Origin: a virus
Strand: one strand, 5' to 3'
DNA length: 27,469 bases
Virus record (IMG/VR): IMGVR_UViG_3300036716_001684
Location: 1-27,469 of that record
In this document: one piece after another, positions 5,488 to 25,396 of the stretch
Layout: each line of letters opens with the position of its first letter
Position numbering within the stretch: the stretch's first letter is position 1
Made by a program: the position numbers and the translations under genes
Notes under the pieces: generated by a model
Databases searched by the model: none
Seen by the model: the letters and a program-made list of their open reading frames with translations, nothing else
Told to the model about the DNA's origin: nothing

Positions 5488-5527
5488 TAATCCCTCAGTG
5501 GGGAATCAATGCTAGAAGATGAGAAGT

Positions 5528-6001: not shown

Positions 6002-6014
6002 TTGTTAGCCCTCC

Positions 6015-7645: not shown

Positions 7646-8014
7646 TCACTCGGCTGGACGTTCCCATTCTGTGCCATCTTGAACCAAACCGTCGCCATCG
7701 CCATCTCTGGCATCTGGGTTGTAGCCACTCTTAGCAACCGCTGTCTTTTTCTTTGGGGCAGCTGCTTTCTTTGGAGCAGCTTCAGCTTTAGTCCCATTAC
7801 CGGTACTAATTAAGTCGAGATAGCCACCCTCAACCAGGCGCTCAACAATCGGATTCATTTTTGCGAGAACGCCATAATGGCCAATTGGCAAAGAATGACC
7901 CTCTTCATCCACTTCTCGAATCGCGTGACCCATGTTGTAAACAACAACACATTTGTCTGCCAGGGCAATGGCGTCTTCGCGTTTAATCGAGTTGAATATT
8001 TGGTAAGCGTCCAT
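7646..8014 (-). CDS. Small beta-domain protein with EF-hand-like C-terminal tag
   Basis: The 122-residue protein has two parts. Residues ~20-75 form a compact domain (DKCVVVYN ... GHYGVLAK ... LVEGGYLDLI) that aligns by eye with the neighbouring 86-residue protein. Then comes a Lys/Ala-rich flexible linker (AAPKKAAAPKKKTAVAK) and a C-terminal tag, DARDGDGDGLVQDGTEWERP. The tag resembles a dockerin/EF-hand loop (D-x-D-x-D-G-x-V) and recurs almost exactly in the protease-headed protein (residues ~437-448). Similar tags occur in proteins of actinobacterial phages; that is recollection, not a search. The tag may bind calcium or serve as a virion assembly peptide. It lies between the probable tail terminator and the sheath, so a minor virion or connector role is likely. 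Function unknown. Confidence 0.8.
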   Translation of the reverse strand: MDAYQIFNSIKREDAIALADKCVVVYNMGHAIREVDEEGHSLPIGHYGVLAKMNPIVERLVEGGYLDLISTGNGTKAEAAPKKAAAPKKKTAVAKSGYNPDARDGDGDGLVQDGTEWERPAE

Positions 8015-8028
8015 GTTTAGATTGTACC

Positions 8029-9475: not shown

Positions 9476-9477
9476 GG

Positions 9478-10113: not shown

Positions 10114-10125
10114 ACGATGACCCCT

Positions 10126-10296: not shown

Positions 10297-10303
10297 GGAA
10301 ACA

Positions 10304-10323
10304 CCTTCCTGGATTCATCCAGG
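10304..10323 (-). promoter_or_regulatory. Perfect hairpin overlapping the ribosome site of the Arg-rich gene
   Basis: On the minus strand CCTGGAT and ATCCAGG are perfect complements separated by two bases (10323-10317 and 10314-10308). The downstream arm ends in AGG, the first three bases of the AGGAAGG ribosome site (10310-10304). Folding would hide part of that site, so the hairpin could lower translation of the Arg-rich gene. No T-run follows, so it is not a typical terminator. A TACACT hexamer (10332-10327) just upstream could be a -10 element, but no matching -35 is seen. Confidence 0.4.
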
Positions 10324-10358
10324 TCCAGTGTAGCACTACGCCTTACACGGAAGAGTTG

Positions 10359-10901: not shown

Positions 10902-12024
10902 CTTCTTGCTCCTTAGCTTTTACGCGCAACGTGTGGGCCCTTGTCTTTGGTCCAACTGGAGAAGCTGATGTTGTAGTCAGCTCGTTCAATAACAGATTGC
11001 GAACCAACCAGTTAGTCGGATAAGAGTACGGATCGAGAGCCTGCTTCTTTCGGAATTCGGCAGAGTACCCTTTCGCCCGCTGTGTTTTGGTTGGGCCGAT
11101 CATGAAGTCGTCGATCACATCCGCTACGCCGTCCCACCCGCGACTGGCGTATTCCTCTATAAGTGTTTCGATATCGAAATCCGGCCACCAGCGACGCTGC
11201 GCGTCAATTTGTGGGAAACATTCGTAAAGGCGATCATAGAAGTCTGGTTCCGTCGCTACGACATCACCGATGCGTCGAATGGCGACAGAATGCAACGGAA
11301 TTCCCACACGAGTATTCGATCCAGTTACGGCAGCGCGGTCATAATATTCGCAATAAGGCGCATCGTGTTCTTCTGTAATGAACTTCAGAACGTCATCCAT
11401 TTGCCAGTCATAAATAACTTTTGCGAACTTCAAGGGAATACTTTTCTTGAGCCCAAATGGAAACACGATGTAATTCTCATGGAGTTTTTGAACCAAAGAG
11501 CGATATCGCATCATCGACTCTGCAGCCCTTACCCCAGTGATAAAAGCCACACTTCCGTTCTTGCCCTGCATGGTGTAGTAGTCAACGGGTTCAGGTAGTG
11601 GTTTCGTTGCATCCAACCCAAATGACTCGGCTGTAATGGCGCCCTCCGGCATCTCTCGAACCCAACGGCCCTCTGCCTTGCGTTGGGCTCCCCAAAGAAC
11701 AACGGACTGCCTCCTGCCCAGCACCCATACTTCTCCCCCGTATGGAAGGCAATACCACTCCATGTCAACCCAATCGAAGTCTTTGACCATGTTGACGTAG
11801 TCCAGGACAATGGGGCTGACCATTTCTTCATCTCTGAAGATGACCTTGACTGGGCCTAATCCTCGTTCTTCATGGATTTCTTTTGCGAGATACAGAACGG
11901 CAGTGCTGTCCTTACCGCCGGAAAATTGAACGCAGACGGTATCGAATGTGTCGTAGACGTGTCGGATGCGCTGACGTGCGGCGTCCACACAAGAAATATC
12001 CAGAAACATTCTCTGTCTGGTCAT
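10882..12024 (-). CDS. PP-loop ATPase, PAPS-reductase-like (IbrA/DndC-like)
   Basis: The 380-residue protein has the PP-loop SGGKDST at residues 35-41 after a VCVQF strand, which marks an adenylating enzyme of the phosphoadenosine phosphosulfate reductase superfamily. A further conserved-looking block is GSVAFITGVRAAESMMRYRS, equivalent to the 'GxRxxESxxR' motif, followed by PLKFAKVIYDWQMDDVLKFI, a DVW/I-like helix found in the family. Aspartates and aromatics of HDAPYCEYYDR follow. The C-terminus is a lysine-rich tail. Relatives include assimilatory reductases, IbrA proteins paired with ParB-like IbrB, and DndC of DNA phosphorothioation. Here it lies between two ParB-like genes with ATGA and 20-base overlaps, so the IbrA/IbrB-type pairing is the best match. 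The substrate is unknown; nucleic-acid thiolation is possible but not shown. Confidence 0.85.
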   Translation of the reverse strand: MTRQRMFLDISCVDAARQRIRHVYDTFDTVCVQFSGGKDSTAVLYLAKEIHEERGLGPVKVIFRDEEMVSPIVLDYVNMVKDFDWVDMEWYCLPYGGEVWVLGRRQSVVLWGAQRKAEGRWVREMPEGAITAESFGLDATKPLPEPVDYYTMQGKNGSVAFITGVRAAESMMRYRSLVQKLHENYIVFPFGLKKSIPLKFAKVIYDWQMDDVLKFITEEHDAPYCEYYDRAAVTGSNTRVGIPLHSVAIRRIGDVVATEPDFYDRLYECFPQIDAQRRWWPDFDIETLIEEYASRGWDGVADVIDDFMIGPTKTQRAKGYSAEFRKKQALDPYSYPTNWLVRNLLLNELTTTSASPVGPKTRAHTLRVKAKEQEDAEAAG

Positions 12025-12788
12025 ACTTCGGAATGGGCGTCTACGAAAGCCATTAGTTTTTCGGCAGTCGTTTCACCCTCATAAGAAGGTTGAGAACGAA
12101 GCCACCTAACGAATTGGTACCAGCGCTTTTGTTGGTCGGGATCATCGAACACGAGTGTGTACTGAACCACCGCCTGTGGTGCGGCGCCCTGCGGAGTTAC
12201 CGTGCTTCCTTGGATGGCAATATCATTGTGATCCACAGTGTCATCGGCAACGATTCTGCGTTCCCCGTCCTCGTCTTCTTGAACAAGAGCTTCCAGAATG
12301 TTCCCTACGAGTTCGGGACGAATGAAGGTTGATGTGCCACCTTCTATGTCTGCGGCATTTTCGGCATGTTCCTCATAGAGGGCAATTTCGAAATCATCCC
12401 AACCCAACCCATCCATCAGGTCACCATAGTCAGTCACGACTTCGGTGATCATTTGAACAGCTTTGGTTGGATCGGTATGACCTAGTTCCATTGTCCGGTT
12501 GTCGGCCAAAGCGAACGCCACAGCCCGCTTGTCATCCGCATCAAGCGGCACCGCCGCTATGTGTGTCCATCCCAACTTTTTGGCAGCTTGAACCTGGTGA
12601 TTTCCTGCGATGATGGTGGCTTTGCCGTCTTCGTTCTCGCGTATCACGATTGGTTTGACTTGACCGAATTCGTCATACGACGCAGCGATGGCTTCGACAT
12701 TACCGACCCGTGGATTGTTTTCCAGTGGTTGAAGGCTGTCGAGGGGAACCAGCATGTCGGTAAGGGATTCATGGGCTTTGTGGTTCAT
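12021..12788 (-). CDS. ParB-like protein with phage-type C-terminal domain
   Basis: The 255-residue protein opens with a clear ParB N-terminal domain. It has the strand LVPLDSLQPLENNPR (residues 13-27), then EAIAASYDEFGQVKPIVI and TIIAGNHQVQAAKKLG (58-73, equivalent to the GxxRhxAxxxxG box), followed by VAFALADNRTMELG. Residues ~165-255 form a separate domain with AVVQYTLVFDDPDQQKRWY and FVRWLRSQP, a pattern I have seen in ParB-like proteins of other phages. No helix-turn-helix or CTPase partition context is present (no ParA nearby), so plasmid segregation is unlikely. Its ATG overlaps the stop of the coiled-coil gene (ATGA), and its stop overlaps the PP-loop start in the same way, so the three are translated as a unit. 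Confidence 0.82.
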   Translation of the reverse strand: MNHKAHESLTDMLVPLDSLQPLENNPRVGNVEAIAASYDEFGQVKPIVIRENEDGKATIIAGNHQVQAAKKLGWTHIAAVPLDADDKRAVAFALADNRTMELGHTDPTKAVQMITEVVTDYGDLMDGLGWDDFEIALYEEHAENAADIEGGTSTFIRPELVGNILEALVQEDEDGERRIVADDTVDHNDIAIQGSTVTPQGAAPQAVVQYTLVFDDPDQQKRWYQFVRWLRSQPSYEGETTAEKLMAFVDAHSEV

Positions 12789-13123
12789 ACCTGCACCCGC
12801 ACATTCGCGTTGAGAGTTCGCATCGCGTCGATTGACGTTCGCAGGGAGAGCAACTTCTCCCGCTTCGATTTTAGTAGGGCTTCCGATATTTTGTACTCAA
12901 ACTGTTCGTCAGCCATTTTGTAGTCGGCCCAGGATTCCCGCTCTTTGATCGACCCTTTGGCGGACAGGTACTCCTTGGCCCATGCCGATTTGTATCTTGC
13001 TTCCTTCTTGGCATTGTCCTCAGCGAGACTTTCGAAAGCTTCCGTTTCGCTTTCCAATTCGTCAAGGAAATATAACAGTCGTTGTTCGATTTCTACCTGA
13101 CTAATAGGGCCTCTAAAGTTCAT
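12785..13123 (-). CDS. Small coiled-coil protein of unknown function
   Basis: The 112-residue protein is almost entirely predicted helix with high Glu/Lys content (LDELESETEAFESLAED, AKKEARYKSAWAKEYL) and ends with LRTSIDAMRTLNANVRVQV. Proteins with the same kind of ending lie among recombination genes in other phages; this is recollection, not a search. It starts at ATG 13123 with a GAGG ribosome site seven bases upstream, overlaps the RuvC gene by 11 bases, and its stop overlaps the ParB-like start (ATGA). The tight coupling suggests a role in DNA metabolism, perhaps as an accessory or recombination mediator. No catalytic motif seen. Confidence 0.75.
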   Translation of the reverse strand: MNFRGPISQVEIEQRLLYFLDELESETEAFESLAEDNAKKEARYKSAWAKEYLSAKGSIKERESWADYKMADEQFEYKISEALLKSKREKLLSLRTSIDAMRTLNANVRVQV

Positions 13124-13640
13124 TATTTTTCCTCACGACATGGGACCAATCGATGGATTCCAGAGCCTCTAAATTCTTCTTAGGCCACTCTTCGTCAGAA
13201 AGACCAAAGTGGGTGCGTCCCATCTGTTCCAAGATCCACGCATCACACATATCGTCAGCACCCTTACCCTCCCAGACTAATCCAGTCCGGGCAGAGATTG
13301 CGGAGATGACTTCAGCCTTTGACGCGTTTCCTCTTCCGGTTGCGAACTTGGCACGACAGGTCGGAGGGATGTCTACGAAGGTGTAATTGTCCTCATGCAG
13401 AGCAAGACGAATGACGCCACCCAGCTCTCCGATGGAGTGAGCCTGACTCGCCCGCGAAGCAAACGAGTAACCCTCAATCAAGACCACATCCGGACGATGT
13501 TCCCGGCAGGCGAGCATGACCTCATCCCTAATGGCAGCGAGCCTCTCCACACCCTTCTTCTTTACGGCAATTGCGTCCATATCTCCGTCACAGGAGTACC
13601 CCGTAGACGTAAGCGACAGGTCGAGACCCATAAACTTCAT
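13113..13640 (-). CDS. RuvC-like Holliday junction resolvase
   Basis: The 175-residue protein shows the RuvC/RNase H fold. The first strand FMGLDLSLTSTGY carries D7, the second acidic residue is E56 in VVLIEGYSFASR, and the C-terminal ADDMCDAWIL helix supplies D129, D130 and D133. The length is close to the usual 160-180. The enzyme would resolve four-way junctions or trim branched DNA before packaging. I chose ATG 13640 because it overlaps the TGA of the HNH gene (ATGA) and has a GGAAGAAG site upstream. An ATG at 13655 would add five residues but lacks a ribosome site. It acts with the Rad52-like protein and Cas4-like nuclease of the same block. Confidence 0.85.
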   Translation of the reverse strand: MKFMGLDLSLTSTGYSCDGDMDAIAVKKKGVERLAAIRDEVMLACREHRPDVVLIEGYSFASRASQAHSIGELGGVIRLALHEDNYTFVDIPPTCRAKFATGRGNASKAEVISAISARTGLVWEGKGADDMCDAWILEQMGRTHFGLSDEEWPKKNLEALESIDWSHVVRKNNEL

Positions 13641-13999
13641 GGCTTCTTCCACCATCCCGGAACAGCCAATCCCAATTCGATGGCGAGCTTCGGCTCACGT
13701 CCGATGCGGTCGTGGCACTCCCGACAGACGGCCATACAGTTTTCTTCGTCAAGAATAGATCCCCCCTGGGATCGACGCTTCAACTCATGGATATCGACAC
13801 TCGCCTGACGCCGATACAAGGTTGCCTCGTCATGCTTGGCAAAGACAGGACACGCCTGACAGTAGGGATACTCATCAAGCAGTCGGGAAACCAACTTCCG
13901 ACGCTCAACATATTCGTCGGACTTTTTCTTACTACGAGGTCGAAGAGGGCCTGAACGCTTGAGTGGACCACCACGCTTCATCGGCTTCTTGCGTTTCAT
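13637..13999 (-). CDS. HNH endonuclease
   Basis: The 120-residue protein has a very basic N-terminus (KRKKPMKRGGPLKRSG) followed by a zinc-supported HNH domain: C47-x2-C50, then DIHE with D69 and H71, N87 in ENC, and C92-x2-C95-H96. The pattern fits the HNH_1 family, a nickase or double-strand nuclease. In many phages a small HNH enzyme assists terminase in packaging, but here it sits between the RuvC gene and a helical protein in the recombination block rather than beside terminase. I chose ATG 13999 because it overlaps the upstream TGA (ATGA). A GTG at 14032 would add 11 residues with no better support. It is not inserted into another gene, so there is no sign of a homing endonuclease. Confidence 0.85.
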   Translation of the reverse strand: MKRKKPMKRGGPLKRSGPLRPRSKKKSDEYVERRKLVSRLLDEYPYCQACPVFAKHDEATLYRRQASVDIHELKRRSQGGSILDEENCMAVCRECHDRIGREPKLAIELGLAVPGWWKKP

Positions 14000-14505
14000 A
14001 GCGTGTCGCTGGTAACTCGATCGAACTCCCACTTATTGTCGAGTGCCGCCCATAGAGCACGATCAATAGCAGTGTCCTCCATGTCGTACTCATGGAGCAA
14101 GGAGCGGTGTTTGAGAATTGCGCGACGATAAAAGTTGGCAGTCTCAAATGGATTTGTCTCGATGGGTCGTCCAGTTTCGACCATGGTTTTGACCTGATCT
14201 AAACGCTTAACGACATGGAATAGGAAACGCTCGATTTTTGTTTGCCGATTTCCATAAGCCGAGGCAGCTTCCCGAGCCAGCTTCTTGCCCTCTCTCCCGA
14301 GAGCTGCGTATCGATTTGCATCAGCCTCAGCATCTGCAACGATGTTCTCAATTTGGGATTCGAGGTTACGAACAAGTGCTTCCAGCGCTCGTTTCCACCT
14401 GTCCCAATTTTGGGTTTCAAGAAGCAACTCACGTTGGGCGGGTGACAGTTTGTTTTTGACTTCTTCTGCCACCATTTGGGCAAAAGCATCATCATTCAGA
14501 ATCAT
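13996..14505 (-). CDS. Helical protein of unknown function in the recombination block
   Basis: The 169-residue protein begins MILNDDAFAQMVAEEV and looks mostly alpha-helical, with a likely coiled coil across ~35-110 (RWKRALEALVRNLESQIENI). The C-terminal part has ETANFYRRAILKHRSLLHEY and ends with LWAALDNKWEFDRV. I chose ATG 14505 because GGAGG lies five bases upstream; the GTG at 14526 would extend it by seven residues without a ribosome site. The gene begins two bases after the Cas4-like nuclease stop and ends in an ATGA overlap with the HNH gene. No domain is recognised. It could be a small accessory protein of the nuclease or the annealing protein. Confidence 0.72.
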   Translation of the reverse strand: MILNDDAFAQMVAEEVKNKLSPAQRELLLETQNWDRWKRALEALVRNLESQIENIVADAEADANRYAALGREGKKLAREAASAYGNRQTKIERFLFHVVKRLDQVKTMVETGRPIETNPFETANFYRRAILKHRSLLHEYDMEDTAIDRALWAALDNKWEFDRVTSDTL

Positions 14506-14507
14506 GC

Positions 14508-15275
14508 TTACCTCCAAGCAGGGCACTCTGGCTTATAGGCACACCAGTTACATAGGGCCGTCTTGTTGGTGGCGAATTCTTGAGTCTCACAGGAAACGTC
14601 TATTGCCTTCTTGGTATCTGTGATGTATGCAACAGTTTCCTCGAAATCATTTTCTGTGAAATCCTGGTCGAACTTGACTCCGTCCTTGAGGTACAGCAAC
14701 TCTAATTTCTTAGTTTCGCCGACTTCAAGCTCGTTTATGAGCGCACCATAGATCTTCAGTTGCAGAAACTTGTCGTCACCATAGTAGGGATTAGGGGTCT
14801 TCCCCGTCTTGTAATCGCTGATGGTTATGCCCCCATCAACCACTGTGTAGCGGTCAATGAATCCCTTGAGAGTTACGCCATTCAGTTGACCATTGAGTTC
14901 GTATTCCAGCCCCACCGGTTCAATCTCGACAGGGCTTTCGACCTTCCAGAGATTCTCAACACACCAGACTGCCCGCCACTTGAATTGGCGGATGCGCTTC
15001 TCGCCGCGAACATAAGGGTCGATTCGTTCTTCCCAATTCCCCTCATTCCAAACTTCGGAAAAAAGAGGATTAATGAGTTCCTTGACCCTTTCTTCGGGAT
15101 CGAACATATAGAACTGTTCGCAGAAGTCGTGAACCAAGTTGCCCAACAGCGTGGCTTCGCTGGGCTCATCGGGAAGCTTGTCAATCTTGCTGAACCGAAA
15201 CTTCATGGGGCACTGATTGAACGTCCCCATAGAAGAAGGAGATAGGTGTGGTGGAGGTACTAGGAGATCACTCAC
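14508..15275 (-). CDS. Cas4/RecB-like PD-(D/E)XK exonuclease with Fe-S cysteines
   Basis: The 255-residue protein contains the full signature of the Cas4/AddB-like nuclease group. An LSPSSMGTFNQCPMKFRF start carries C22, and GNLVHDF carries the metal-site H49. GFIDRY (D141) and SDYKTGK (D154, K156) form the PD-(D/E)XK core. A terminal C242-x2-C245-x5-C251 with CNWCAYKPECPAW completes four cysteines for an Fe-S cluster. The enzyme should resect DNA ends to provide single strands for the Rad52-like annealing protein encoded two genes upstream. The start is GTG 15275, with GGAAGG six bases upstream, overlapping the winged-helix gene by eight bases. No cas1 or cas2 gene or repeat array is present, so a CRISPR role is not suggested. 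Confidence 0.88.
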   Translation of the reverse strand: MSDLLVPPPHLSPSSMGTFNQCPMKFRFSKIDKLPDEPSEATLLGNLVHDFCEQFYMFDPEERVKELINPLFSEVWNEGNWEERIDPYVRGEKRIRQFKWRAVWCVENLWKVESPVEIEPVGLEYELNGQLNGVTLKGFIDRYTVVDGGITISDYKTGKTPNPYYGDDKFLQLKIYGALINELEVGETKKLELLYLKDGVKFDQDFTENDFEETVAYITDTKKAIDVSCETQEFATNKTALCNWCAYKPECPAWR

Positions 15276-15612
15276 TGACGGCCTTCCATAAATGCTGAGG
15301 TGCTTTGTGGCGTGATGGTCGTTCAGACAAGGTCGTTTCTGGTCTGCGACAAGTCGGACACACTACGGGTTCTATCAGACCCGCCTTTTCTGCGGCCTTC
15401 ATCAAAGGCCCCAAAAGGCGGTTGTCCCGAAGGGTCACTCCTTCGGAATCCAGTCGATCTAGAACTGCGTCTGTCGTCCAATGAACATCAGAAGGGTACG
15501 TTGTAGCAACCCAGTGGATCGCCCATTTCGCTTTGGATTTCAGTTCGGGGTCTGCGCTGGATTCGACCTTACGCATTCCCATGTCACGAAGGACGGCTCC
15601 ATCCTCAGACAT
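15268..15612 (-). CDS. Winged-helix-like DNA-binding protein
   Basis: The 114-residue protein has a core AKWAIHWVATTYPSDVHWTTDAVLDRL followed by TLRDNRLLGPLMKAAEKAGLIEP. This matches a winged-helix pattern frequent in actinobacterial phages and Actinobacteria ('...fTtDdvW..l....v..pr.lGa.mr.a...GlI'). A CPTC pair (in VVCPTCRRPE) and a basic/proline C-terminus follow. The family is thought to bind DNA near replication or recombination genes. I chose ATG 15612, which overlaps the Rad52-like stop by eight bases. An in-frame TTG at 15672 would add 20 residues of low-quality sequence. Confidence 0.68.
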   Translation of the reverse strand: MSEDGAVLRDMGMRKVESSADPELKSKAKWAIHWVATTYPSDVHWTTDAVLDRLDSEGVTLRDNRLLGPLMKAAEKAGLIEPVVCPTCRRPETTLSERPSRHKAPQHLWKAVSE

Positions 15613-16243
15613 CGTCTTCTTCGTCTTCGACAACTGTGGCGTTGAAGGACAATCGGACTGCCTCTTCGGCAAGGGCTGTTACGTCAGCGACAAACGTGTC
15701 GGTCATGGTGCCAATGTTTGGCTTGGGGCGTCCGCCGGAGTGCTTGACCCAAAACTCGTTGAGGCCGTCCTTCTGCTCTTCGGTAAGGCTCCCGGCCAGT
15801 GAGAGGAAGTTGTCCCATGCGCTTTTCACCTTTGGATCTGGTGCGTCCTCAAGTTGGAGAGCTATCTCGTCACGGGCAAGGTAGAGACCAACGCCGAGTG
15901 TCTGTGCAGCCTTCTTGAGGGCTTCGGAAGTCGCGCTCTTGTAGGAGTCACCCAGGTCCATGTTGCCTGTGTGTCTGGCACCACCGAAAGCTTCCCGGAC
16001 GACGACGCTGCCTTCGATGATGGCGGAAAGCTGCACATGGACGATGATCCAATCATCAGTCTTGGTATCACGACCCTGACTCTTGATCGTGTAGTTCCAG
16101 TTCTCGACGCCCAGCACATTGCTGAGACGTGCGATGACCTCGTGGACTGGGATATAGGTAAGCTCCATCCCTCCCTTTTTGAGGATCGATTCGACCTCTT
16201 TGGGGAATGGTGCACTGAGCTTTTTTAGTATTTCTTCGCTCAT
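15605..16243 (-). CDS. Rad52/Rad22-like single-strand annealing protein
   Basis: The 212-residue protein shows the hallmark blocks of the phage Rad52 group. LTYIPVHEVIARLSNVLGVENW (residues 28-49) comes first, then a beta-sheet region with WIIVHVQLSAII, and GDSYKSATSEALKKAAQTLG ending in GVGLYL (98-122), the basic loop and helix that carry single-stranded DNA in the ring. The C-terminal ~90 residues are a flexible region with an acidic end (VVEDEEDDV), which could interact with partners such as a single-strand binding protein. The protein would anneal complementary strands during recombination-dependent replication or repair. Its start overlaps the upstream gene (ATGA), and it works naturally with the Cas4-like nuclease and RuvC of the same operon. 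Confidence 0.86.
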   Translation of the reverse strand: MSEEILKKLSAPFPKEVESILKKGGMELTYIPVHEVIARLSNVLGVENWNYTIKSQGRDTKTDDWIIVHVQLSAIIEGSVVVREAFGGARHTGNMDLGDSYKSATSEALKKAAQTLGVGLYLARDEIALQLEDAPDPKVKSAWDNFLSLAGSLTEEQKDGLNEFWVKHSGGRPKPNIGTMTDTFVADVTALAEEAVRLSFNATVVEDEEDDV

Positions 16244-16728
16244 TGGGCTTCGCCCTTTCTGACGATCACGCTCGTCTTTGGTTCAGATGGCTCGCAGTAG
16301 AGGTCGGCGGTAACACCAATCTCGTTCAACTTCCCGACCCTCCAATAAGAAGGTGCGAGATAGTCAAGCATTTGCATGGCCATTTCTTTGGGGGTGGAGA
16401 TCACTTCACCGGTATCCATGTCAACTGATGACTGAACAATTCGGTCCATGACGACACCGGCAAGATCCTTGTGTTGCCAGCCCTTGCGGCTAGAGGCAAT
16501 CTTTCGTTCGACCTGGGCCCCATCACGAAGCTCAATGATCGGATCTTCGATCATCAGGTTGCCAAGCAGGCCAACCAAACGGTCGTAAACGATGCCCATG
16601 TCGTTCTTGGCGAGATTGAACTCCAAGACGAGATCGGCGACTTCGGTTGCTTCACCCTCGATCAGATCGACTCGTTCGTCAAGCTGAGAAAGGAGAAGGC
16701 GGAGGGTCTTAATGTCCTCCAGGTTCAT
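16240..16728 (-). CDS. Unknown protein upstream of the annealing protein
   Basis: The 162-residue product starts MNLEDIKTLRLLLSQLDERV with a helical N-terminal half and a charged central part (IASSRKGWQHKDLAGVVMDRI). It continues with LDYLAPSYWRVGKLNEIGVTAD and a short C-terminal extension. ATG 16728 has an AGGAG site upstream, and the stop overlaps the Rad52-like start by four bases. Comparable proteins commonly precede recombination genes in actinobacterial phages, so a role in DNA metabolism is likely, but I do not recognise a domain. It is separated from the terminase stop by 34 bases, so terminase and this gene probably share a transcript. Confidence 0.7.
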   Translation of the reverse strand: MNLEDIKTLRLLLSQLDERVDLIEGEATEVADLVLEFNLAKNDMGIVYDRLVGLLGNLMIEDPIIELRDGAQVERKIASSRKGWQHKDLAGVVMDRIVQSSVDMDTGEVISTPKEMAMQMLDYLAPSYWRVGKLNEIGVTADLYCEPSEPKTSVIVRKGEAQ

Positions 16729-16762
16729 AGTAGATCTCCTGGATCTGGATTATGTTGACTGC

Positions 16763-18070
16763 CTAGACAACGATAGCGACTCGCTTACGCTGAGGCAACC
16801 CTAGCCCGGTTAAATTTGTGAAGGCTCCGGTGGCGGAGTCAACTTGATCATCGTGGGTACAGGCTTCCGGGAAAGCCGACAGTTCGTCTAACCAGTCTGT
16901 GAGCCATGGACCCCGTACAGCTCGCACGTTTCCGTTAGCCAATGCGGCTGCGAATGGTCGGGCACGGGTGACCTTGTCGCCAGTCGCCCTCATGCCCATA
17001 AAGTCGTGGCCCGGTAAAACGTAGCGGGCGTATTGATCGATAAGAGCTTTGCCCGAGGAGCCCGGTTCCTGCTCCATCCGGATCGCCACTGTCGGTCCGT
17101 CCTCATACGCCGTCTGGGAAATGAGATGTTCCACCTTGTCACTCTTCACCCTTACACGTTTTACGTCAAGAACGTAGGCAATGCCCTGGTCAAACATCAT
17201 AAGAGTTCCGACTGTCCAGTCGGGATCAGGATTATTGGGAGCGGGTTCGGTCGCTGCCAAATCCCAAAATCGAACAGCGCGAGCCGTCGGGGACAACTGG
17301 GGAATTTCCTGTGAGTCGATAATGACAACGGACTCGCGGTCGAACAATGATCCCAGCGTTGTGGCCCACCAATCGCCTTCTTCGAGGCGTCTACGTTCTA
17401 CTGGATCCAGAGCTTGGAGGGACTGTCGATAAGACTCGGAGTCGATGCCAGGGTTATCCGTCAGGAAGGAGGGGACAAAGATTCGGCCTGTTGTCTTCCC
17501 CTCGACAATGAAGCGTTGCCTCACCCAGTTTGGTGCAGGGTTCGATGCGCACCTCATCCGCAGGGGGACCTTGGACAATGGACCCGAGGCCGGACGACGC
17601 AAACGTGAGAAGAGATACCGGTAGTCGGCTTCTCGAATTTCGGTAACCTCGTCCATGCCGATGAATTGGAATTCCGCTCCCTTGTACCGCAGATAGTCCT
17701 GACTGTTATTTAGGTAGCCAAATGAAATTCTGGCTCCAGATGGAAAGGTCGCCGTGTAGGTGTTGGAGTTCCACTTCACATCTTCCTGTGGCCCTGTCCA
17801 CAGCTGGAAACGATCCATGATCGCTCCCGGCAGGGCAAGGTCGGCGTAAGTTCGACGGAAGAGGATGGCGGAGTATTGCGGCACCTCAATATATTGAAGT
17901 GCAGCCATCAGGAGGGCGGAACTCTTACCTCCACCAGCAGCTCCCCCAAATAATGCCTCCAGGGCATAGGTGCGCAGAAAAACCCTTTGGGTAATGGAGG
18001 GCTCCTCGGGACAATAGGGGGCGTCCTTCGGCGTCAGATAATCTAGTACCTTATTCCAGTCCGTCGACAC
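16763..18070 (-). CDS. terL: Terminase large subunit
   Basis: The 435-residue protein is a complete packaging motor. The Walker A motif GGAAGGGKSS spans residues 42-51, Walker B FIGMDEV places D140-E141 near 136-142, and the coupling-type motif is RCASNP at 183-188. The nuclease half follows, with FWDLAAT (D270), LDVKRV (D302), the E333/E335 pair in RMEQEPG, and the terminal acidic cluster DDQVDS (D407, D408, D411). It would drive DNA into the prohead and cut the concatemer. No small subunit gene is recognised beside it. The start is GTG 18070 with a GGGGTG ribosome site; there is no competing in-frame ATG close by. It heads the leftward convoy, divergent from the portal, which is unusual because terminase and portal normally run together. 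Confidence 0.95.
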   Translation of the reverse strand: MSTDWNKVLDYLTPKDAPYCPEEPSITQRVFLRTYALEALFGGAAGGGKSSALLMAALQYIEVPQYSAILFRRTYADLALPGAIMDRFQLWTGPQEDVKWNSNTYTATFPSGARISFGYLNNSQDYLRYKGAEFQFIGMDEVTEIREADYRYLFSRLRRPASGPLSKVPLRMRCASNPAPNWVRQRFIVEGKTTGRIFVPSFLTDNPGIDSESYRQSLQALDPVERRRLEEGDWWATTLGSLFDRESVVIIDSQEIPQLSPTARAVRFWDLAATEPAPNNPDPDWTVGTLMMFDQGIAYVLDVKRVRVKSDKVEHLISQTAYEDGPTVAIRMEQEPGSSGKALIDQYARYVLPGHDFMGMRATGDKVTRARPFAAALANGNVRAVRGPWLTDWLDELSAFPEACTHDDQVDSATGAFTNLTGLGLPQRKRVAIVV

Positions 18071-18145
18071 TCGGTCACCCCGCTATCGTCTATTCTAGAA
18101 TAGGCTACAAACAACAACCCGTCGGGCACTATTCTGAGAGGTCAT
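18071..18145. promoter_or_regulatory. Divergent control region with palindromic operator candidate
   Basis: These 75 bases separate the leftward terminase start from the rightward membrane protein start, so the promoters of both convoys must lie here or nearby. They contain a perfect 14-bp palindrome, CTATTCTAGAATAG, at 18090-18103, and its half-site CTATTCT recurs in the same orientation at 18129-18135 (39 bases downstream). A repressor or activator dimer is a reasonable reader of such sites. TAGAAT within the palindrome is -10-like on both strands, but no matching -35 box is found at normal spacing, so no promoter is called. Confidence 0.45.
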
Positions 18146-18322
18146 ATGGATATTTGGACCAGATTGAGAGACGTGTCTCGACGAGAGATCCTAGCTAACG
18201 GGCTAATGGTATCATTTATCATACTTACAAGCATCGGTGCAGCGATGGTCTACCTTCCGCTGGGCCTTATAGTTGGAGGTCTAGCTTGTGGCGTATTCGG
18301 GTTTCTACTGGGTCTTGAGTAA
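18146..18322 (+). CDS. Small two-helix membrane protein
   Basis: The 58-residue protein has a GAGAGG ribosome site four bases before its ATG and ends two bases before the portal ATG. After an amphipathic start (MDIWTRLRDVSRREI), two hydrophobic helices occupy residues ~19-36 (NGLMVSFIILTSIGAAMV) and ~38-57 (PLGLIVGGLACGVFGFLLGL), joined by a tight turn. A small membrane protein ahead of the portal is a recurring arrangement in some phages, and its role there is generally unknown. It could resemble a holin, but no lysis gene is next to it. The tight coupling to the portal suggests co-expression with head genes. Confidence 0.72.
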   Translation: MDIWTRLRDVSRREILANGLMVSFIILTSIGAAMVYLPLGLIVGGLACGVFGFLLGLE

Positions 18323-18324
18323 CG

Positions 18325-20334
18325 ATGGCTTGGAACTCTACTAATAACAAATCCCTGGATCCTGGGCAACAGAAGACCGCTATTGGACCCGGCGCGCCCA
18401 TTGCCACGAACCCGTCTATAGCGGGCAAGCCGTACTTCGATCCGTGGGATATCGAGCGTGCATACAGGGAGGGCATGCAGAAGGTCACTTGGGTGGCTCG
18501 CTGTGTGGATGCCATCAGCGGAAACCAAGCTCGACTCCCTGTCATCCTCAGGGAGGGAAACGCTCCGGATGGCAAAATTGTTACGAGTAGTTCTGTTCAG
18601 GCACAAAGCACTCTCTTAGACGTACTCAATACCAAATCGAATATCGGTGAAAACTCATTCATATTCAGATACAGGCTCTCCTCACAGCTCCTTATGAGCA
18701 GTCGGGGTGCCTTCATTGAGAAAGTCCGTTCTCGTGATGGCCGAATCATCGGCCTGAACCTTCTCCCACCACAACACACAGCACCGATTCCGGATCCCAA
18801 GAAATTCGTATCCGGCTTTGAAGTAAGCATGCCGACCGGCAAAAAGGTAATCCTCAAGCCGCATGATGTCGTATGGGTACGACGCCCACATCCGATCGAT
18901 CCCTACCTCTCTATGACGCCAATGGAGTCCGCCGGTGTCGCTATCGAAATCGAAAACCTGGCAAAACTGTACAACCGCAACTTCCTACTCAACGACGGAC
19001 GGCCAGGTGGCCTGCTAGTTCTTAGAGGCGAAATTGACGACGACGACAAGAATGAACTAAGAAGCCGGTTCCGTGGAAACTTGGGACGAGTTGGATCCAC
19101 CACAGTGGTTGCTGCTGATGATGGAGTCGACTTTGTCGATACGTCATCCAACCCTCGTGATGCCGCGTACATTCAAATGCGGACAATCACCAAGGAAGAA
19201 ATCTTTGCTGCCTTCGGAGTTCCTGAGACTGTTATTGGCAACGCCTCTGGCCGAACATTCAGTAACGCATCTGAGGAAATCCGCGTATTCTGGATGGAAA
19301 CAATGTTGCCCCATCTGGAGCCGATTGCTCGTGCTCTTGATGAATTAGATCCTATTCATTACGTCGATTTTGATACCACAACTGTTCCCAACCTCATTAT
19401 TTACAAGCAGGAACGTGACCGCTACTTGATGGACGAACTCCAACAGGGTCTCATCAGTGTCAATGAATATCGTGAACTGACTGGCAAAGATACAGTAAAA
19501 TCTGATCTTGCAGATTCACTCTTAATGAATCCCAATCTGACACCCATCGCAAATACGGAGAAGGAAATGGAGCAGCCCAGTGCGATGGTGGGCGGGCAGC
19601 CGGGCATGATGCAACCACAGCCCGGTATGCCAATGCCCGGGGGTGAAGTGCCCCCGGGCGCGCCCCCCGGCGAGCAACCCCTCGATCCAAACACGATGCA
19701 GGGAGCAATGGCTGCCGAGCAGGGTGCACCTCAAGGGAATGGTCAACAGCCCGCTGGAGCAGATATGGGGCAGATGACCGGTGAGCCATACGACTATGAA
19801 ACTAAAGAAAACTCGCCAGAGGAATTGGGCGATGATTACGAACGGTGGACCGGCATTCTGGACCGCAGTCTTGAGCGACTTTTTGAACGTCAACAGCGTG
19901 TCATTTTGGAAAAAGCAGCAGGCAAGAAAGCTCGAACTTTATTGACTCAAGGTTCTCTGGAAATAGGGAATGTCATGACCATCGGAACTTGGGATCGACA
20001 AATGGACGAGGATATTCGTCCTGTGTTGAATTCGATCATCAAAGATTCACAAGAATCTCAGACTACGAAATCAGCCGACTATGCCCCCCCCACCGGAGAA
20101 GACATACAAGTCCAGCTGAATGCCCAGATGGATCGAATCAAGTCGATCAATTTGGACACTCAGTATGAAATCAATCAAAAGGTGATTGCTTCGATGGCTC
20201 TCCAGGATGAAGACCGTCGTCATTCCGTTCTCAAGCAAGAACTGATCAGCTTCTTTGCCAGTTTACTTGCCAAGACACCAGGGCTCGTATCGGAAAATGA
20301 AGCTCGGCGAGCTTGGAAGTTCCCAATCAGTTAG
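18325..20334 (+). CDS. Portal protein (HK97 type) with C-terminal extension
   Basis: The 669-residue protein forms the dodecameric ring through which DNA enters the head. Residues ~40-400 match HK97 portals: WVARCVDAISGNQARLPVIL, then PLSMTPM-like and SAGVAIEIENLAKLYNRNFL, GRPGGLLVL, EIFAAFGVPETVIGNASGRTF-type segments, and QQGLISVNEYRELTG near 373-387. A Pro/Gly/Met/Gln-rich linker follows (~415-490, with repeats such as GMMQPQPGMPMPGG). Then comes a helical charged domain (~500-669, with RSLERLFERQQRVIL) that is not part of a minimal portal. The terminal domain might act in protein-protein contacts inside the head or be an MuF-like fragment. The gene starts two bases after the membrane protein. 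Confidence 0.93.
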   Translation: MAWNSTNNKSLDPGQQKTAIGPGAPIATNPSIAGKPYFDPWDIERAYREGMQKVTWVARCVDAISGNQARLPVILREGNAPDGKIVTSSSVQAQSTLLDVLNTKSNIGENSFIFRYRLSSQLLMSSRGAFIEKVRSRDGRIIGLNLLPPQHTAPIPDPKKFVSGFEVSMPTGKKVILKPHDVVWVRRPHPIDPYLSMTPMESAGVAIEIENLAKLYNRNFLLNDGRPGGLLVLRGEIDDDDKNELRSRFRGNLGRVGSTTVVAADDGVDFVDTSSNPRDAAYIQMRTITKEEIFAAFGVPETVIGNASGRTFSNASEEIRVFWMETMLPHLEPIARALDELDPIHYVDFDTTTVPNLIIYKQERDRYLMDELQQGLISVNEYRELTGKDTVKSDLADSLLMNPNLTPIANTEKEMEQPSAMVGGQPGMMQPQPGMPMPGGEVPPGAPPGEQPLDPNTMQGAMAAEQGAPQGNGQQPAGADMGQMTGEPYDYETKENSPEELGDDYERWTGILDRSLERLFERQQRVILEKAAGKKARTLLTQGSLEIGNVMTIGTWDRQMDEDIRPVLNSIIKDSQESQTTKSADYAPPTGEDIQVQLNAQMDRIKSINLDTQYEINQKVIASMALQDEDRRHSVLKQELISFFASLLAKTPGLVSENEARRAWKFPIS

Positions 20335-20369
20335 TTTCCGTAAAATCTCTTCCTGTAGTTTACGGAAAC
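20334..20369 (+). repeat. Perfect 11-bp inverted repeat after the portal gene
   Basis: GTTTCCGTAAA (20334-20344) is followed after 14 bases by its exact complement TTTACGGAAAC (20359-20369). The first arm starts on the last base of the portal stop codon. No T-run follows, so it is not a standard intrinsic terminator. It lies in the 106-base gap between portal and the protease-headed gene. It could be an RNA stem that adjusts transcript stability or readthrough, or a protein-binding site. No promoter with clear -35/-10 boxes is seen in the remaining gap (20370-20440), but a strong GGAGG site precedes the next ATG. Confidence 0.6.
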
Positions 20370-20440
20370 CTAGGATGTTGTACCTGTTACTTACACGTTA
20401 GACGCTTCCCGTCGTTTATCATTAGTGACGGAGGTGCCCT

Positions 20441-23400
20441 ATGTCCAATGATCTTCTTGCAAATGTCCAGTTTAAGGCCCGTTCTGGTGCCCAAGTTACC
20501 GTTGATAAAGCGGAGGGTATCGTCGAGTGTTTCGTCGCTGGCATAGGCAACAAAGACAGCGTCGGAGACATCGTTCTACCTGGAGCTTTCACCGAAAGCC
20601 TAAAGCGCCGTAAGCCACGAGTTGTTTGGGGACACAGCTGGAACGATCCCATTGGGAAGGTTCTAGAGATCTACGAGGTCCCCAACTCGGACCCCCGACT
20701 CCCGCAGAAAATGAAAAGTGCCGGAATCGGCGGCTTGTTCGCAAAAGTTCAGTTCAATCTGGGTGCAGAAAAGGGACGAGAGGCATTTGCCAACGTCGCC
20801 TTCTTCGGAGAAGAGCAGGAATGGTCGATTGGCTACAAGACCCTTCAAGCCAATTTTGACCCGGTGCAACAGGCCAACATGCTCAAAGAGGTTGAACTCT
20901 ATGAGGTAAGCCCTGTTCTGCATGGCGCCAACCAGTTGACAGGCACAATTTCCGTCAAAGACGGAGAGGCAGCTGCGTGTGGCACAAATGGTTGCGACTG
21001 CAGCGTCAAATCGACAGCCATCGAACCAGAAGCCCCAGAAGGCATTGTTTTCGAAAAGGGTTCCATGATGGGCCGAATGCCCATGGTGATGATTCCTCTT
21101 CCCATACCTAGCCCAGGAGGCAATTCCGTCGATGCGTCCAACAGGGACATCTGGTCTCGCGGAGAAGCAGGCCCGATCGATTTAGAAGATCGCCGCAAAC
21201 TAGCCACAGAAATCCACGGGCGGACCAAGGTGCCGATCAAGATTGTTGAAGCCACTGAGAACATGGTCGTGTTCCTAAGGAAGATGGTGGACGGCACTGA
21301 GCGGATGTACCGAATGCCTTACCACAAGACGGATTCCGGGCAGTACATGTTTGGGAAACCGGCACGAGTCAAACCTCAGACGGTTTATGCACCAGATAAC
21401 ACACCCAACCCGATGGGTCATATTCACCACAAACCGAATTCGGGTCCACTTCTAGCGAAGGATCCGAACGGCGAAGAATTCAAGGATGGGGCTCCAATGC
21501 TTATTCCTTGTGCCGTTGAAAATATCCTCGAAACTAAAGATGCGCTGAGTCCAATTCTTGAGTACTACGAAGCAACTGTCACTCCTAGTTCGGGTGGGTT
21601 GATCATTACTGACTACAAACCGGAGTTTCGTGAAGCAGCCAATACGGCCCTTAAGGCCCTAGGAGGAAAACTGGGGCGAGGTGGTGGCCTGGGAAAAGGC
21701 CGTAGGGCCGGGAGGGCCCTCGCCGCAAGGTTCGATCCGAGGGCGTGGGATGGTGATAATGACGGGCTAGTCCAAGAGGGCACCCCATTCGAACGTCCTT
21801 CCATCCCTGGGATCAATACCAACCTCCCCGGTCAGCCTCATACGAGGCAAAAGCCGAAAGAGTCCCCAGACGATCATCGCAGCAGCCCTCAGCGAGGTAT
21901 GCGTTCTACCGCAGATGAACGTGTCAGGCCCGGAGCAAATGCCCGTCGTGCCGATCAAGATTCCGCTGTTGATATGGACGAGATCCTGGACCGCGAAGAC
22001 GAACGCACGCCTGATGGTCTACTTGACCCAACGTATCGCCGTCGTTTAGGTGCAACCCCTATGACACCGAGCGGTATGCGCTCCCGTCGCGATTCCGAGA
22101 GCGACTCTGTCCACCACTTCACCAAGCCGTTGGCCCAGTCACAGAGGGACACTCTTCTCGATGCCGACTACGACGGTCTGCTAGAGCACTTTGCAGATCG
22201 AGTGGAGTTGCGAGCCGAAATATGGGACAGCGACGCAGTTGCAGGCACCATCCTTGAAGATGAAGATGAAGGAAACATCACTGCCAGTGATGTCCTTGAA
22301 CACATCATCGGAACTCGCATCGAAACCGCCGAAACCGCCATAGAAGAGGGCGAAGCCGGTGCCCGAAATCATCTGCGCCAACTGAAACGGCTGAGGGAAG
22401 TGGTGGGTGACGGCATGCGCCCACAGCGCGCCGGGGGCGTGCGTTCTCAACGAGACGCGGACCAGAGGGAGTCTGGAAAGGAGTTTGAGGGCGTATCCAC
22501 CGAAGATCTCCAACGGGAACAAGAATTCATCCGAAGTCTCAGGGTGGGTGGCATCAACTTGGCTGGTTATACGTCAGGTCAGTATTATGCGCCACAAGTC
22601 CCTGAGGATGTAGAGACGATGGAGGAGATCTATGGGTCACCATGGGGATTAAGCAACATGACTGCTCGTCTCAAATTGATTGAAGAAGAACTAGAACTTC
22701 GAGGCTGGGACGACATCTTCCAGGATGAGGGCATCCGGCGCGAAGAAATCCGTGACATGTCGCTCAGGGATTTGCGAAGTTCCGATATCCACCCAGATGT
22801 CTATGAATTTGTCGAAAATACGTTCTCCGGCTGGCCAGAGGATGACCCGATTTGGGATATGACGATGGGGGAAATCGCCAAACTTGACCAACCGAGCGGC
22901 AACCTTCATTTCGCAGACCACGACATAGAGAGGATGATTGTCTCCGAAATGAAGTACCGGGCCGGTACTCCGGGCTCATCATCGCAGGGTGGTCGCGGCT
23001 TCGATCCTGGTAACCCTGATGCAGGACGCAGAGGAGGCGTGCGTTCTAGTCGGGGTGATGGTATTCCTGACGATTTGGGCGATGACGACGACTATTCGGA
23101 TTGGCTGGCCAGAAACCATGAGATGACCGACGAAACGCTTGACGAGATGGCCAGGTACTACGACGATCCCCCCAACTCGGGGATGAGAAGTATGGCTTCC
23201 GGAGACCGTCGCAAGCGAATCGGAGAGCTAAACGAAAAGCTCCAAGTACTCGATGAGGAGATCAGCAGAGCAGGTCGATTTGAAGATCCCGACTACAAGC
23301 GCATGGTCGATACCGAAAACCGTCTCACTACCGAAATCTCAGCCCTACGCAGATCAGAAACTCTTTTCGACCTGGAGTCAGGTTCTCGGAGCAGAATCGC

Positions 23401-25396
23401 AGCAAAGAAAACTCTCGAATTGAATCTCACTGAAGATGAGATTGGATCCCTACGAAACCACATCCAAGAAATGGTCAAGGGCAACACGGATAAGAAAGTG
23501 AATGGCGCCCTTGCCTCCTACGACACCCTTCTATCCAGTGCCAAGAACGGAAAGATCAAAGTTCCTGTCGAGGTATACGACAACATCATTGACAATTGGG
23601 ATAAGGCAACCGGAGGCAAGAAAATCCACCCAAAGACGGGTCGTGACATTCTCGAATTCGCCGCTATGAGCGACGACAGCAAATTCACTTCAACATCGGT
23701 GGGGCGCGGCGATAATCACTATTCCGGGTTTGGGAAGCAGCGCGTCAACAACGGTGCACCGCCAGAAATTACTCCTCGTATGCAGAAAGAAATGCTGGGG
23801 GGCATGCGTCTTCGACGTGATACTGGACAAGGCGCTGGCGACACCCAAGCACGGTTGCAGGACATGTCTCAAATTGACATGAATGATGTTCTTGATGACG
23901 AACGGAGTAAATCGACTCCTGGAGTTCGCGGCCATCTTTCGTTTGTAGGCGGACACGGCCTCATGGCCAACGCCATGCGGGAGGATGGGCACGGTTCTCC
24001 TAGACAATGGCAGATGGTTAGAGGGCATCATGGGATGCGTTCTAGCGTTGGCGATCAGGGACCTGTCAAGCCGTCTTCCCTGCCTGGAGCAAAGAAAAAG
24101 GGCGGTCGACAAGTCGGCGACAAGATGCCAGAGAAAAGGTTACAGGGCAAGAAGTTCGATGAGGTAAAGCCTTCTAACTGGAAAGAAATGACCGACGAGG
24201 AACAGTGGGATTTTATTTCATCTTTGCGTTCTTGGAGTAAAGATAGGCCCGACGGAATACGACAGGTCGATTTGGACAGAGTTAGTAAAGAGCTAGCCAA
24301 GAAAATCGAATTAAGAGAACGTCGTGAAAAGCGTCGCGAAGGAAAGTTTGAAACTATTGCGGAACGTCGGGCACGACGCTTAGAGCAGGGCGTCAGTCTG
24401 CCAGAACCAAAAGAAACTCCATCAAAAGAACCACAGCCGCAAACACCGCAGGGCGCAGCACGGGAGCGACGCGAGACGTTGGAGGCCATGGACAACATCT
24501 TCGCCAGGGCCCACTCGCGCGCTCAAAAGGCGAGTGATGACGATGAACTGGGTAGCGAGCATCTTGATTTCTGGGGAAAGACAATGGACATTCTCAGTGA
24601 TTCTGATGATTTGACTTATTCACAGATCGAAGCTCTTGACGCACTGTTCGAGGAGTACCTCGGTGTGGAGTTTGAGAACATGTCCGCACCTGAAAGTGCT
24701 AGTCGACGGACTGCTCTTGCCCAAAAAGGAAACATAGAAACTCTTTTGGAGAAGTATCGCGGAAATAGGGATATCCAGCAAGGTGACTCATCGATCTCCG
24801 AACGTCTTGGTGGGGCCGATGAGATTGTCGATCAGACAGAAGTTGGCGATGCCGTCGGCGTAGTGGGTATGCGTTCAATGGTGAGCCGAAACAGCGCACT
24901 GTTTTCTCCCGCCTCGCCTGTTACGCAATACGTCCAAGCTCGTCGGCCCACCGGTATGCGCGCAACCCGTGAAGGGCGGACTCAGGTCAATGGTGAAGCC
25001 ACCTTCTTCAAGAAGGTCGGAGATTCGCTACCCAGAGAAATTAGCGAAGCCCGCAAGGACGACAACAGAACAACTGTAAAAGCCTTAGAGCTTTTGCAAC
25101 AAATCTTGAAACGCCAGGAATCCGGAAAAGTCGGGGACAAGCGGAGCAACGCTGGAACGCTTACCGTGACCCAAGCAGAGGTAGATCAGATTTTGGAAGG
25201 CTTGATGGATGTTGTCGACCGGCAGGTTGCCACTGATGGCTCAAGAACCAAAATGTTTGTTGAGTTGTTAGAACTGCTTTCTGAAGCGGCGATGTCCACG
25301 TTCATAATGGAAACAACTGAAGAAATCCATGCCCGAACGCAACGACGCAGAAACTCGCGTGGCGATCAGGTTTCGATTCCCTTGAACCCATCATGA
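20441..25396 (+). CDS. Prohead protease fused to a very long repeat-linked region (possible polyprotein)
   Basis: The 1651-residue protein begins with an HK97 (U35)-type prohead protease in residues ~1-165: DSVGDIVLPGAF, VVWGHSW with the catalytic H65, EWSIGYK with S129, and the closing YEVSPVLHGANQ. A typical protease is ~200 residues, so about 1480 residues are extra. Residues ~190-410 form an unrecognised domain, and 411-450 have a Gly/Arg-rich linker with an EF-hand-like DGDNDGLVQEGT. From 486 onward, ten short G-(M/V)-R motifs (mostly GMRS) separate charged, partly helical segments of 8 to 278 residues. The segments opening at 486 and 1121 share VDMDEILDRE/IDMNDVLDDE. The frame is continuous. 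The extra region may be a scaffold or several head proteins cleaved by the protease. GGAGG lies six bases before ATG. Confidence 0.88.
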   Translation: MSNDLLANVQFKARSGAQVTVDKAEGIVECFVAGIGNKDSVGDIVLPGAFTESLKRRKPRVVWGHSWNDPIGKVLEIYEVPNSDPRLPQKMKSAGIGGLFAKVQFNLGAEKGREAFANVAFFGEEQEWSIGYKTLQANFDPVQQANMLKEVELYEVSPVLHGANQLTGTISVKDGEAAACGTNGCDCSVKSTAIEPEAPEGIVFEKGSMMGRMPMVMIPLPIPSPGGNSVDASNRDIWSRGEAGPIDLEDRRKLATEIHGRTKVPIKIVEATENMVVFLRKMVDGTERMYRMPYHKTDSGQYMFGKPARVKPQTVYAPDNTPNPMGHIHHKPNSGPLLAKDPNGEEFKDGAPMLIPCAVENILETKDALSPILEYYEATVTPSSGGLIITDYKPEFREAANTALKALGGKLGRGGGLGKGRRAGRALAARFDPRAWDGDNDGLVQEGTPFERPSIPGINTNLPGQPHTRQKPKESPDDHRSSPQRGMRSTADERVRPGANARRADQDSAVDMDEILDREDERTPDGLLDPTYRRRLGATPMTPSGMRSRRDSESDSVHHFTKPLAQSQRDTLLDADYDGLLEHFADRVELRAEIWDSDAVAGTILEDEDEGNITASDVLEHIIGTRIETAETAIEEGEAGARNHLRQLKRLREVVGDGMRPQRAGGVRSQRDADQRESGKEFEGVSTEDLQREQEFIRSLRVGGINLAGYTSGQYYAPQVPEDVETMEEIYGSPWGLSNMTARLKLIEEELELRGWDDIFQDEGIRREEIRDMSLRDLRSSDIHPDVYEFVENTFSGWPEDDPIWDMTMGEIAKLDQPSGNLHFADHDIERMIVSEMKYRAGTPGSSSQGGRGFDPGNPDAGRRGGVRSSRGDGIPDDLGDDDDYSDWLARNHEMTDETLDEMARYYDDPPNSGMRSMASGDRRKRIGELNEKLQVLDEEISRAGRFEDPDYKRMVDTENRLTTEISALRRSETLFDLESGSRSRIAAKKTLELNLTEDEIGSLRNHIQEMVKGNTDKKVNGALASYDTLLSSAKNGKIKVPVEVYDNIIDNWDKATGGKKIHPKTGRDILEFAAMSDDSKFTSTSVGRGDNHYSGFGKQRVNNGAPPEITPRMQKEMLGGMRLRRDTGQGAGDTQARLQDMSQIDMNDVLDDERSKSTPGVRGHLSFVGGHGLMANAMREDGHGSPRQWQMVRGHHGMRSSVGDQGPVKPSSLPGAKKKGGRQVGDKMPEKRLQGKKFDEVKPSNWKEMTDEEQWDFISSLRSWSKDRPDGIRQVDLDRVSKELAKKIELRERREKRREGKFETIAERRARRLEQGVSLPEPKETPSKEPQPQTPQGAARERRETLEAMDNIFARAHSRAQKASDDDELGSEHLDFWGKTMDILSDSDDLTYSQIEALDALFEEYLGVEFENMSAPESASRRTALAQKGNIETLLEKYRGNRDIQQGDSSISERLGGADEIVDQTEVGDAVGVVGMRSMVSRNSALFSPASPVTQYVQARRPTGMRATREGRTQVNGEATFFKKVGDSLPREISEARKDDNRTTVKALELLQQILKRQESGKVGDKRSNAGTLTVTQAEVDQILEGLMDVVDRQVATDGSRTKMFVELLELLSEAAMSTFIMETTEEIHARTQRRRNSRGDQVSIPLNPS
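21896..24964 (+). repeat. Ten G-(M/V)-R motifs inside the protease-headed protein
   Basis: Encoded motifs begin at residues 486 GMRS, 545 GMRS, 658 GMRP, 666 GVRS, 866 GVRS, 914 GMRS, 1121 GMRL, 1198 GMRS, 1476 GMRS and 1505 GMRA. The corresponding bases are mostly GG(T/C/G)(A/G)TGCGTTCT. Six of the ten are GMRS, and flanking residues are typically small, polar or basic, as at interdomain linkers or processing sites. Spacings are 59, 113, 8, 200, 48, 207, 77, 278 and 29 residues, so this is not a regular tandem repeat. The recurrence is seen directly; the linker or cleavage role is inference. Confidence 0.8.

Follow-up and report, generated by a model that had tools for sequence, protein, structure and literature searches.

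Why should a phage head maturation protease carry a C-terminal tail of 1480 residues, and why should one short peptide motif recur along this tail? These questions are raised by P0001, a giant protein encoded in a stretch of viral DNA of 27,469 nucleotides (IMG/VR record IMGVR_UViG_3300036716_001684, positions 1 to 27,469; hereafter the window). A sequence-only reading had proposed the chain as a candidate head polyprotein that the protease could cut at the motifs, or else as one giant disordered scaffold with the motifs as binding or anchoring linkers. The answer depends on what the tail consists of, where the motifs lie in it, which other proteins share them and how they change from one lineage to another.

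A Protease with a Modular Tail

From the N- to the C-terminus, P0001 is composed of the protease, a middle domain, a tag shared with other proteins and a series of modules split by a short motif in flexible linkers (Table 1). Profile searches assign the N-terminal domain to S78 (PF04586, E = 6.9e-11) and to the head maturation proteases (phrog_80, E = 1.1e-24), and the catalytic H65 and S129 are invariant in an alignment of 16 relatives, so that the protease domain is intact, as had been claimed. In the predicted model, pLDDT is about 75–80 at residues 250–310 and 67–74 at residues 351–400 of the middle region, and about 80–88 over most of the length of the C-terminal domain. A Pfam search recognized no typical polyvalent domain in P0001 itself, and fold searches with low-confidence models gave nothing at E < 0.001.

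Table 1. Positions in the window of P0001, its parts and the associated features.
Feature	Position	Strand	Remarks
Second tag copy, C-terminus of 122-aa protein	7646..7732	-	
Portal protein	18325..20334	+	Directly upstream of P0001; PF04860 E = 2.3e-45, phrog_2662
Giant protease-fusion protein P0001, 1651 aa	20441..25396	+	Intact ORF, ATG start; full-length relatives L003, L004
S78 prohead protease domain, residues 27–170	20519..20950	+	Pfam/PHROG matches, H65 and S129
Middle alpha/beta region, residues 245–410	21173..21670	+	Kept in relatives (alignment)
Shared tag, residues 412–464: G/R-rich stretch and FDPRAWDGDNDGLVQEGTPFERPSIPGINTNLPG	21674..21832	+	
Motif GMRS, residue 486	21896..21907	+	
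Motif GMRS, residue 545	22073..22084	+	Left edge of 321-aa cassette
Cassette of 321 aa, residues 545–865	22073..23035	+	Missing from L003 (99% identical)
Weak motif GMRP, residue 658	22412..22423	+	
Motif GVRS, residue 666	22436..22447	+	
Motif GVRS, residue 866	23036..23047	+	Right edge of 321-aa cassette
Motif GMRS, residue 914	23180..23191	+	
Motif-like GMRL, residue 1121	23801..23812	+	
Motif GMRS, residue 1198	24032..24043	+	
Motif GMRS, residue 1476	24866..24877	+	
Motif-like GMRA, residue 1505	24953..24964	+	
C-terminal helical domain, residues 1511–1646	24971..25378	+	57–61% identity in relatives
Acidic scaffold-like protein P0002, 654 aa	25421..27385	+	No motif

In IMG/VR, a scan brought up 418 stretches that encode relatives, and 80 loci among them were fetched; the family sequences are metagenomic contigs throughout, many of them fragmentary. 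Residues 1–420 are conserved among the relatives, as are the protease and the tag behind it ("DGDxDG-VQEGT"); the tail is modular, and complete frames span 1019 to 5494 amino acids. In every relative examined, the S78 domain lies at the N-terminus. Polyvalent-protein domains are found in the tails of distant relatives: ArdC-N and MPTase-PolyVal in G006, G009 and G016, KTSC in G006 and G016, and RNase_T and UvrD_C in G009. The 5494-aa frame (L106 of G016, ORF 5207–21691) contains the S78 protease, ArdC-N, MPTase-PolyVal, five KTSC stretches and 21 copies of GF[AS]S. Protease relatives are also present in two contigs (L125 and L126) of the Gammaproteobacteria MAG PBNR01, which may represent phage contigs that were binned with it, not prophages; a host assignment from GTDB genomes was not trusted, as it would come from these two contigs of one MAG only.

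The protease gene lies between the portal gene upstream and the major capsid protein (MCP) gene downstream, the latter position being read from G018, in which the MCP gene comes past the cargo genes, as the window stops before it. At 18070–18325, two sets of genes start in opposite directions, those for terminase and tail lying on the minus strand and those for portal and head cargo on the plus strand, and the same divergent layout is seen in G018, G020 and G003. Elsewhere on the minus strand of the window, RuvC-like, PD-(D/E)XK and Rad52-like recombination genes (13113–16243) lie between the terminase and tail genes, and a PAPS-reductase-like protein adjoins a ParB-N protein (10359–12788), downstream of which is a small ParB-like-looking protein that has no Pfam match.

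Motifs in Flexible Linkers

Ten motifs with irregular spacing had been reported from residue 486 onward. The motifs are real: seven are strict copies of G[MV]RS, all past residue 485, and the other three are imperfect (GMRP, GMRL and GMRA). When the residues of the P0001 tail are shuffled, the mean is 0.07 strict copies, and seven were never attained in 20,000 shuffles. GMRS is also the top-enriched short pattern in the head-operon proteins of the window (5 against 0.04 expected). The spacing is indeed irregular (median 146, interquartile range 82–277), and in every lineage-matched relative having a motif the first copy is at residue 468 or beyond.

Two checks proposed with the sequence-only reading gave results in its support. 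One concerned structure: the motifs fall in predicted disordered linkers separating helical modules. In an AlphaFold2 model of residues 480–1651, used for order and disorder only as its mean pLDDT is 57, segments with pLDDT < 50 contain nine of the ten motifs, and the tenth is at the edge of one; 102 of 20,000 random placements were as good as this pattern. Between the motif-bearing linkers, helical modules and the C-terminal domain are predicted. In agreement with a linker setting, the hydrophobic fraction around 188 motifs is 0.193, compared with 0.243 at random places (sd 0.005). The other concerned conservation: among homologues, identity at aligned sites is 70% for the motifs versus 47% for their flanks.

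Some motifs also bound modules that are gained or lost as units. L003 is without the cassette of residues 545–865, with boundaries exactly from motif to motif, and an assembly error by repeat collapse is unlikely because the two edges of the cassette differ in DNA. Near residue 1505, five relatives (L006, L016, L010, L011 and L013) have two motifs with about 75 residues between them, which the window does not have. It is false that every large indel ends at motifs: these are the two clean cases, and most others end elsewhere.

The Same Motif and Tag in Unrelated Head Giants

The motif is not a peculiarity of the protease chain. From portal to MCP, G018 encodes a protease chain of 1743 aa, an acidic protein, a 2243-aa HExxH protein, three further proteins (1117, 649 and 1576 aa) and a protein of 914 aa that contains a zeta-toxin domain. 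G[MLVI]RS occurs 24 times in this head-operon region against 0.94 expected, compared with once against 1.49 expected in the rest of the 114-kb contig, and the head-operon giants of G020 have 28 copies against 1.01 expected. Within one genome, the same form of the motif is common to S78, zincin-like, zeta-toxin and unnamed giants, which are non-homologous proteins. Other portal-to-capsid giants of related phages share the plan of P0001, an N-terminal domain followed by the tag and by motif-split modules. The motif is absent from the portal and from the acidic scaffold-like protein, and none of its forms is found in the MCP, the substrate expected for the S78 protease, of any lineage examined, the scaffold/capsid boundary of the MCP included. 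The tape measure protein was rejected as a motif carrier: the putative one of the window (835–4704, minus strand) has GMRS at residue 587 and GVRS at residue 1086, but strict copies are lacking in its counterparts from G018 and G019.

The full tag, FDPxAWDGDxDG(I/L)VQEGTPFERPxIPGINTNLPG, occurs in several head-operon giants and in small tail-region proteins. It precedes the first motif in 23 of the 24 proteins having both, the one exception being a contig-end fragment with a weak tag match. The spacing DxDxDGxxQE of the P0001 tag resembles that of the Excalibur-type calcium-binding pattern, DxDxDGxxCE. A 122-aa protein of the window (7646–8014, minus strand), adjoining a putative tail sheath gene, ends in the DGDGDGLVQDGTEWERP tag with nothing beyond, and phrog_7924 has the same C-terminal tag. 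Outside the portal-capsid operon, L115 (G006) encodes a 2069-aa protein (9469–15678, minus strand) with three HExxH sites, RNase_T and WYL, in which five copies of the lineage motif are found.

Concerted Change of the Motif by Lineage

In the head-operon giants, the top-enriched short pattern is GMRS(xR) in the window, G018, G019 and G020, GLRS in G003 and G023, LRSSG in G024 and G025, R[LF]SSG in G009, and GFASRG in G006 and G016; the form in L081 is GLSSG. Observed and expected numbers are 21 against 0.13 for GFAS (G016), 19 against 0.28 for LRSS (G025) and 17 against 0.36 for R.SSG (G009), and those of G023 (5 against 0.18) and G003 (8 against 0.30) are weak alone given the number of patterns tried and count only within the series. 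In an alignment by eye all forms fit [MLF]-[RSA]-Ser, serine being the sole residue shared by all of them. The forms track the protease tree. A homologous ArdC module has GFAS-type motifs on both sides in G006 and G016 and RLSSG before it in G009. Short-tailed proteins of the LRSSG clade have few or no motifs.

What kind of unit is under selection? The copies are spelled by 16 distinct DNA words out of 19 in G018, 16 out of 16 in G025 and 10 out of 10 in G009. Since codons vary between copies, selection acts at the protein level and a DNA-level repeat is ruled out; the methionine of the motif is not kept in other lineages, which rules out its use as an internal start codon. Because the motif changes in concert across non-homologous giants by lineage, we infer a common trans-acting recognizer. 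In a comparison of protease columns with motif type, the active-site region (about residues 121–134 and 150–171) is nearly invariant; residue 149 is K/R or Y/F by clade, a difference confounded with phylogeny. The MCP is 66–95% identical across lineages with differing motifs.

The polyprotein proposal therefore has to be divided. Its motifs are real, linker-located, better conserved than their surroundings and bound two cassettes, but the protease chain is not alone in having them; a single self-cleaving polyprotein is disfavored by the occurrence of the same motif in several unrelated head-operon giants, in which it switches together by lineage. As far as sequence comparison can tell, P0001 is one member of a putative multi-protein, polyvalent-type set of head cargo proteins.

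What the Motif May Be For

We put at about even the chance that P0001 arose from a head maturation protease by extension of its C-terminus into a cargo chain of the polyvalent type. The motif shared with other head giants suggests that this chain is either processed or anchored within the head, as cargo to be injected into the host. The likeliest reading of the motif, to which we would also give equal chances of being right or wrong, is that of a candidate cleavage site in proheads. Giants of the P0001 type would enter the prohead, in which the tag or the N-terminal part would dock them; the core [MLF]-[RSA]-Ser would then be a site at which the S78 protease, or possibly the zincin-like protein of the operon, processes them during maturation; and the freed modules would be packed around the DNA and later ejected into the host. 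A broader proposal, that non-homologous head giants including the protease share a docking tag and a concertedly drifting linker motif as a lineage-specific punctuation code, and that cutting at these marks in the prohead yields dozens of injected effectors, is tentative, and we rate it at a little under an even chance.

Several lines of evidence argue for this scheme: the strong enrichment of the motif in head-operon giants and its near absence elsewhere, the sharing of one form, tracking the protease tree, by non-homologous proteins of one genome, the linkers of low hydrophobicity with low pLDDT and varied codons at the motifs, and the same ArdC module beside each lineage's own motif together with the order of tag before motif. 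It also has precedents. The head protease of HK97 cuts K103/S104 (PMC10275583), that of phi12 has K/R at P1 (PMC8569155), and gp245 of SPN3US cleaves a single propeptide at several AXE sites, with Ser favored at P1' (PMC10052503). Against the scheme stand the large indels that do not end at motifs and the short-tailed proteins poor in motifs, and against cleavage in particular the conserved MCP without any motif form, an active-site region that hardly changes while the motif does, and a Phi-X-Ser alignment that puts R, S or A at P1, which is unusual for one protease family.

The first two of these objections to cleavage, the motif-free MCP and the invariant active-site region, make docking a serious rival, because both would be explained by a motif serving as a docking or anchoring peptide on the inner capsid, scaffold or another head protein, by which uncut giants would be loaded and laid out in the prohead. 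Docking also accounts for the concerted change among non-homologous proteins, for the linker location and the many copies per chain, and for the absence of the motif from the portal and the acidic scaffold-like protein. We nevertheless consider this main rival clearly less likely than cleavage: its most obvious partner, the MCP, has no visible co-variation with the motif at the identities given above, the irregular spacing speaks against it, and the motif bounds modules, two exact cassettes included, more naturally than a binding site would.

Distinctly less probable is that another enzyme, such as a kinase or a zincin-like or host protease, acts at the motif on injected chains, the serine being modified or occupying P1'. 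The serine common to all lineage forms is consistent with this, as are the HExxH proteins of the operon and the MPTase-PolyVal domains of distant relatives, and Iyer et al. (2017; PMC5512222) propose self-processing of polyvalent proteins by MPTases, either in the head or in the host. No specific enzyme was linked to the motif in this analysis, however, and no kinase family was recognized in the operon. A mere common linker or recombination junction that aids module shuffling without any recognizer would account for the two cassettes whose gain or loss follows the motif boundaries exactly, but it is improbable, as freely varying codons do not fit a DNA-level repeat, the change of motif by lineage affects non-homologous proteins in concert, and most large indels end away from the motifs. 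Hardly credible is one giant disordered scaffold degraded after assembly: in the cultured relative GMA6, the protease does continue into an acidic, scaffold-like extension of the same chain, but the C-terminal part of that extension matches the separate gene P0002, the model of the tail shows helical modules as well as a conserved domain at its C-terminus, and enzyme domains are present in relatives.

Should the motif be a processing site, as the preferred reading has it, the boundaries of head-cargo modules could be read from sequence in hundreds of uncultured phages, which would provide a ready list of candidate early effectors as well as natural protease-substrate pairs of differing specificity. 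A docking motif would instead amount to an address by which cargo is loaded into phage heads. In both cases the recognizer becomes searchable through the concerted change of a short motif in unrelated proteins, and the tag and the motif annotate large hypothetical proteins left blank by profile searches.

Comparison with Known Systems

The nearest cultured S78 proteases are those of Gordonia phage GMA6 (orf19), Brevibacterium phage Cantare (gp13) and Streptomyces phage Gilgamesh (gp52), which are 36–41% identical to P0001 over about 170 residues of the protease domain and are likewise encoded just before the MCP. Unlike P0001, they have only 417–641 aa, no DGD tag and no comparably enriched motif. 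P0002 and the GMA6 protease match at their C-termini (45% over 111 aa, E = 4e-24), and in the window the scaffold-like part of GMA6-type proteases thus seems to have a gene of its own. The P0001 tail had no match in 50,697 cultured phage records, and no cultured phage carrying the tail, the tag, the zincin-like or the zeta protein was found. Between its portal and protease genes, Gilgamesh encodes the unannotated gp48 of 4624 aa (L085, 3761–17635), which has no enriched motif of the P0001 kind. Literature searches for the motif strings, the tag and a giant head maturation protease, which covered few subscription journals, returned nothing relevant.

Among described systems, P0001 resembles polyvalent proteins, which the available sections of Iyer et al. 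(2017; PMC5512222) present as very long modular chains encoded with virion genes. It has their trait of a long multi-domain chain among virion genes (1651 aa, up to 5494 aa in the frames of relatives, adjoining the portal), and ArdC-N, MPTase-PolyVal and other enzyme domains of its relatives add to the likeness. Those sections also note assemblin-like peptidases in some polyvalent proteins, always C-terminal, in contrast to the N-terminal S78 protease of P0001, and they do not mention a shared linker motif. MuF and portal-effector fusions, as treated in the same sections (PMC5512222), are alike in joining a structural head gene to cargo domains beside the portal, but the carrier in P0001 is the protease. 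In the head proteolysis of SPN3US and phiKZ-like phages, one protease (gp245) cuts several head proteins, some of them at a repeated short motif, and ejection is presumed for many internal head proteins; there, the motif is AXE, the propeptides are N-terminal and the protease is not fused to cargo (PMC10052503).
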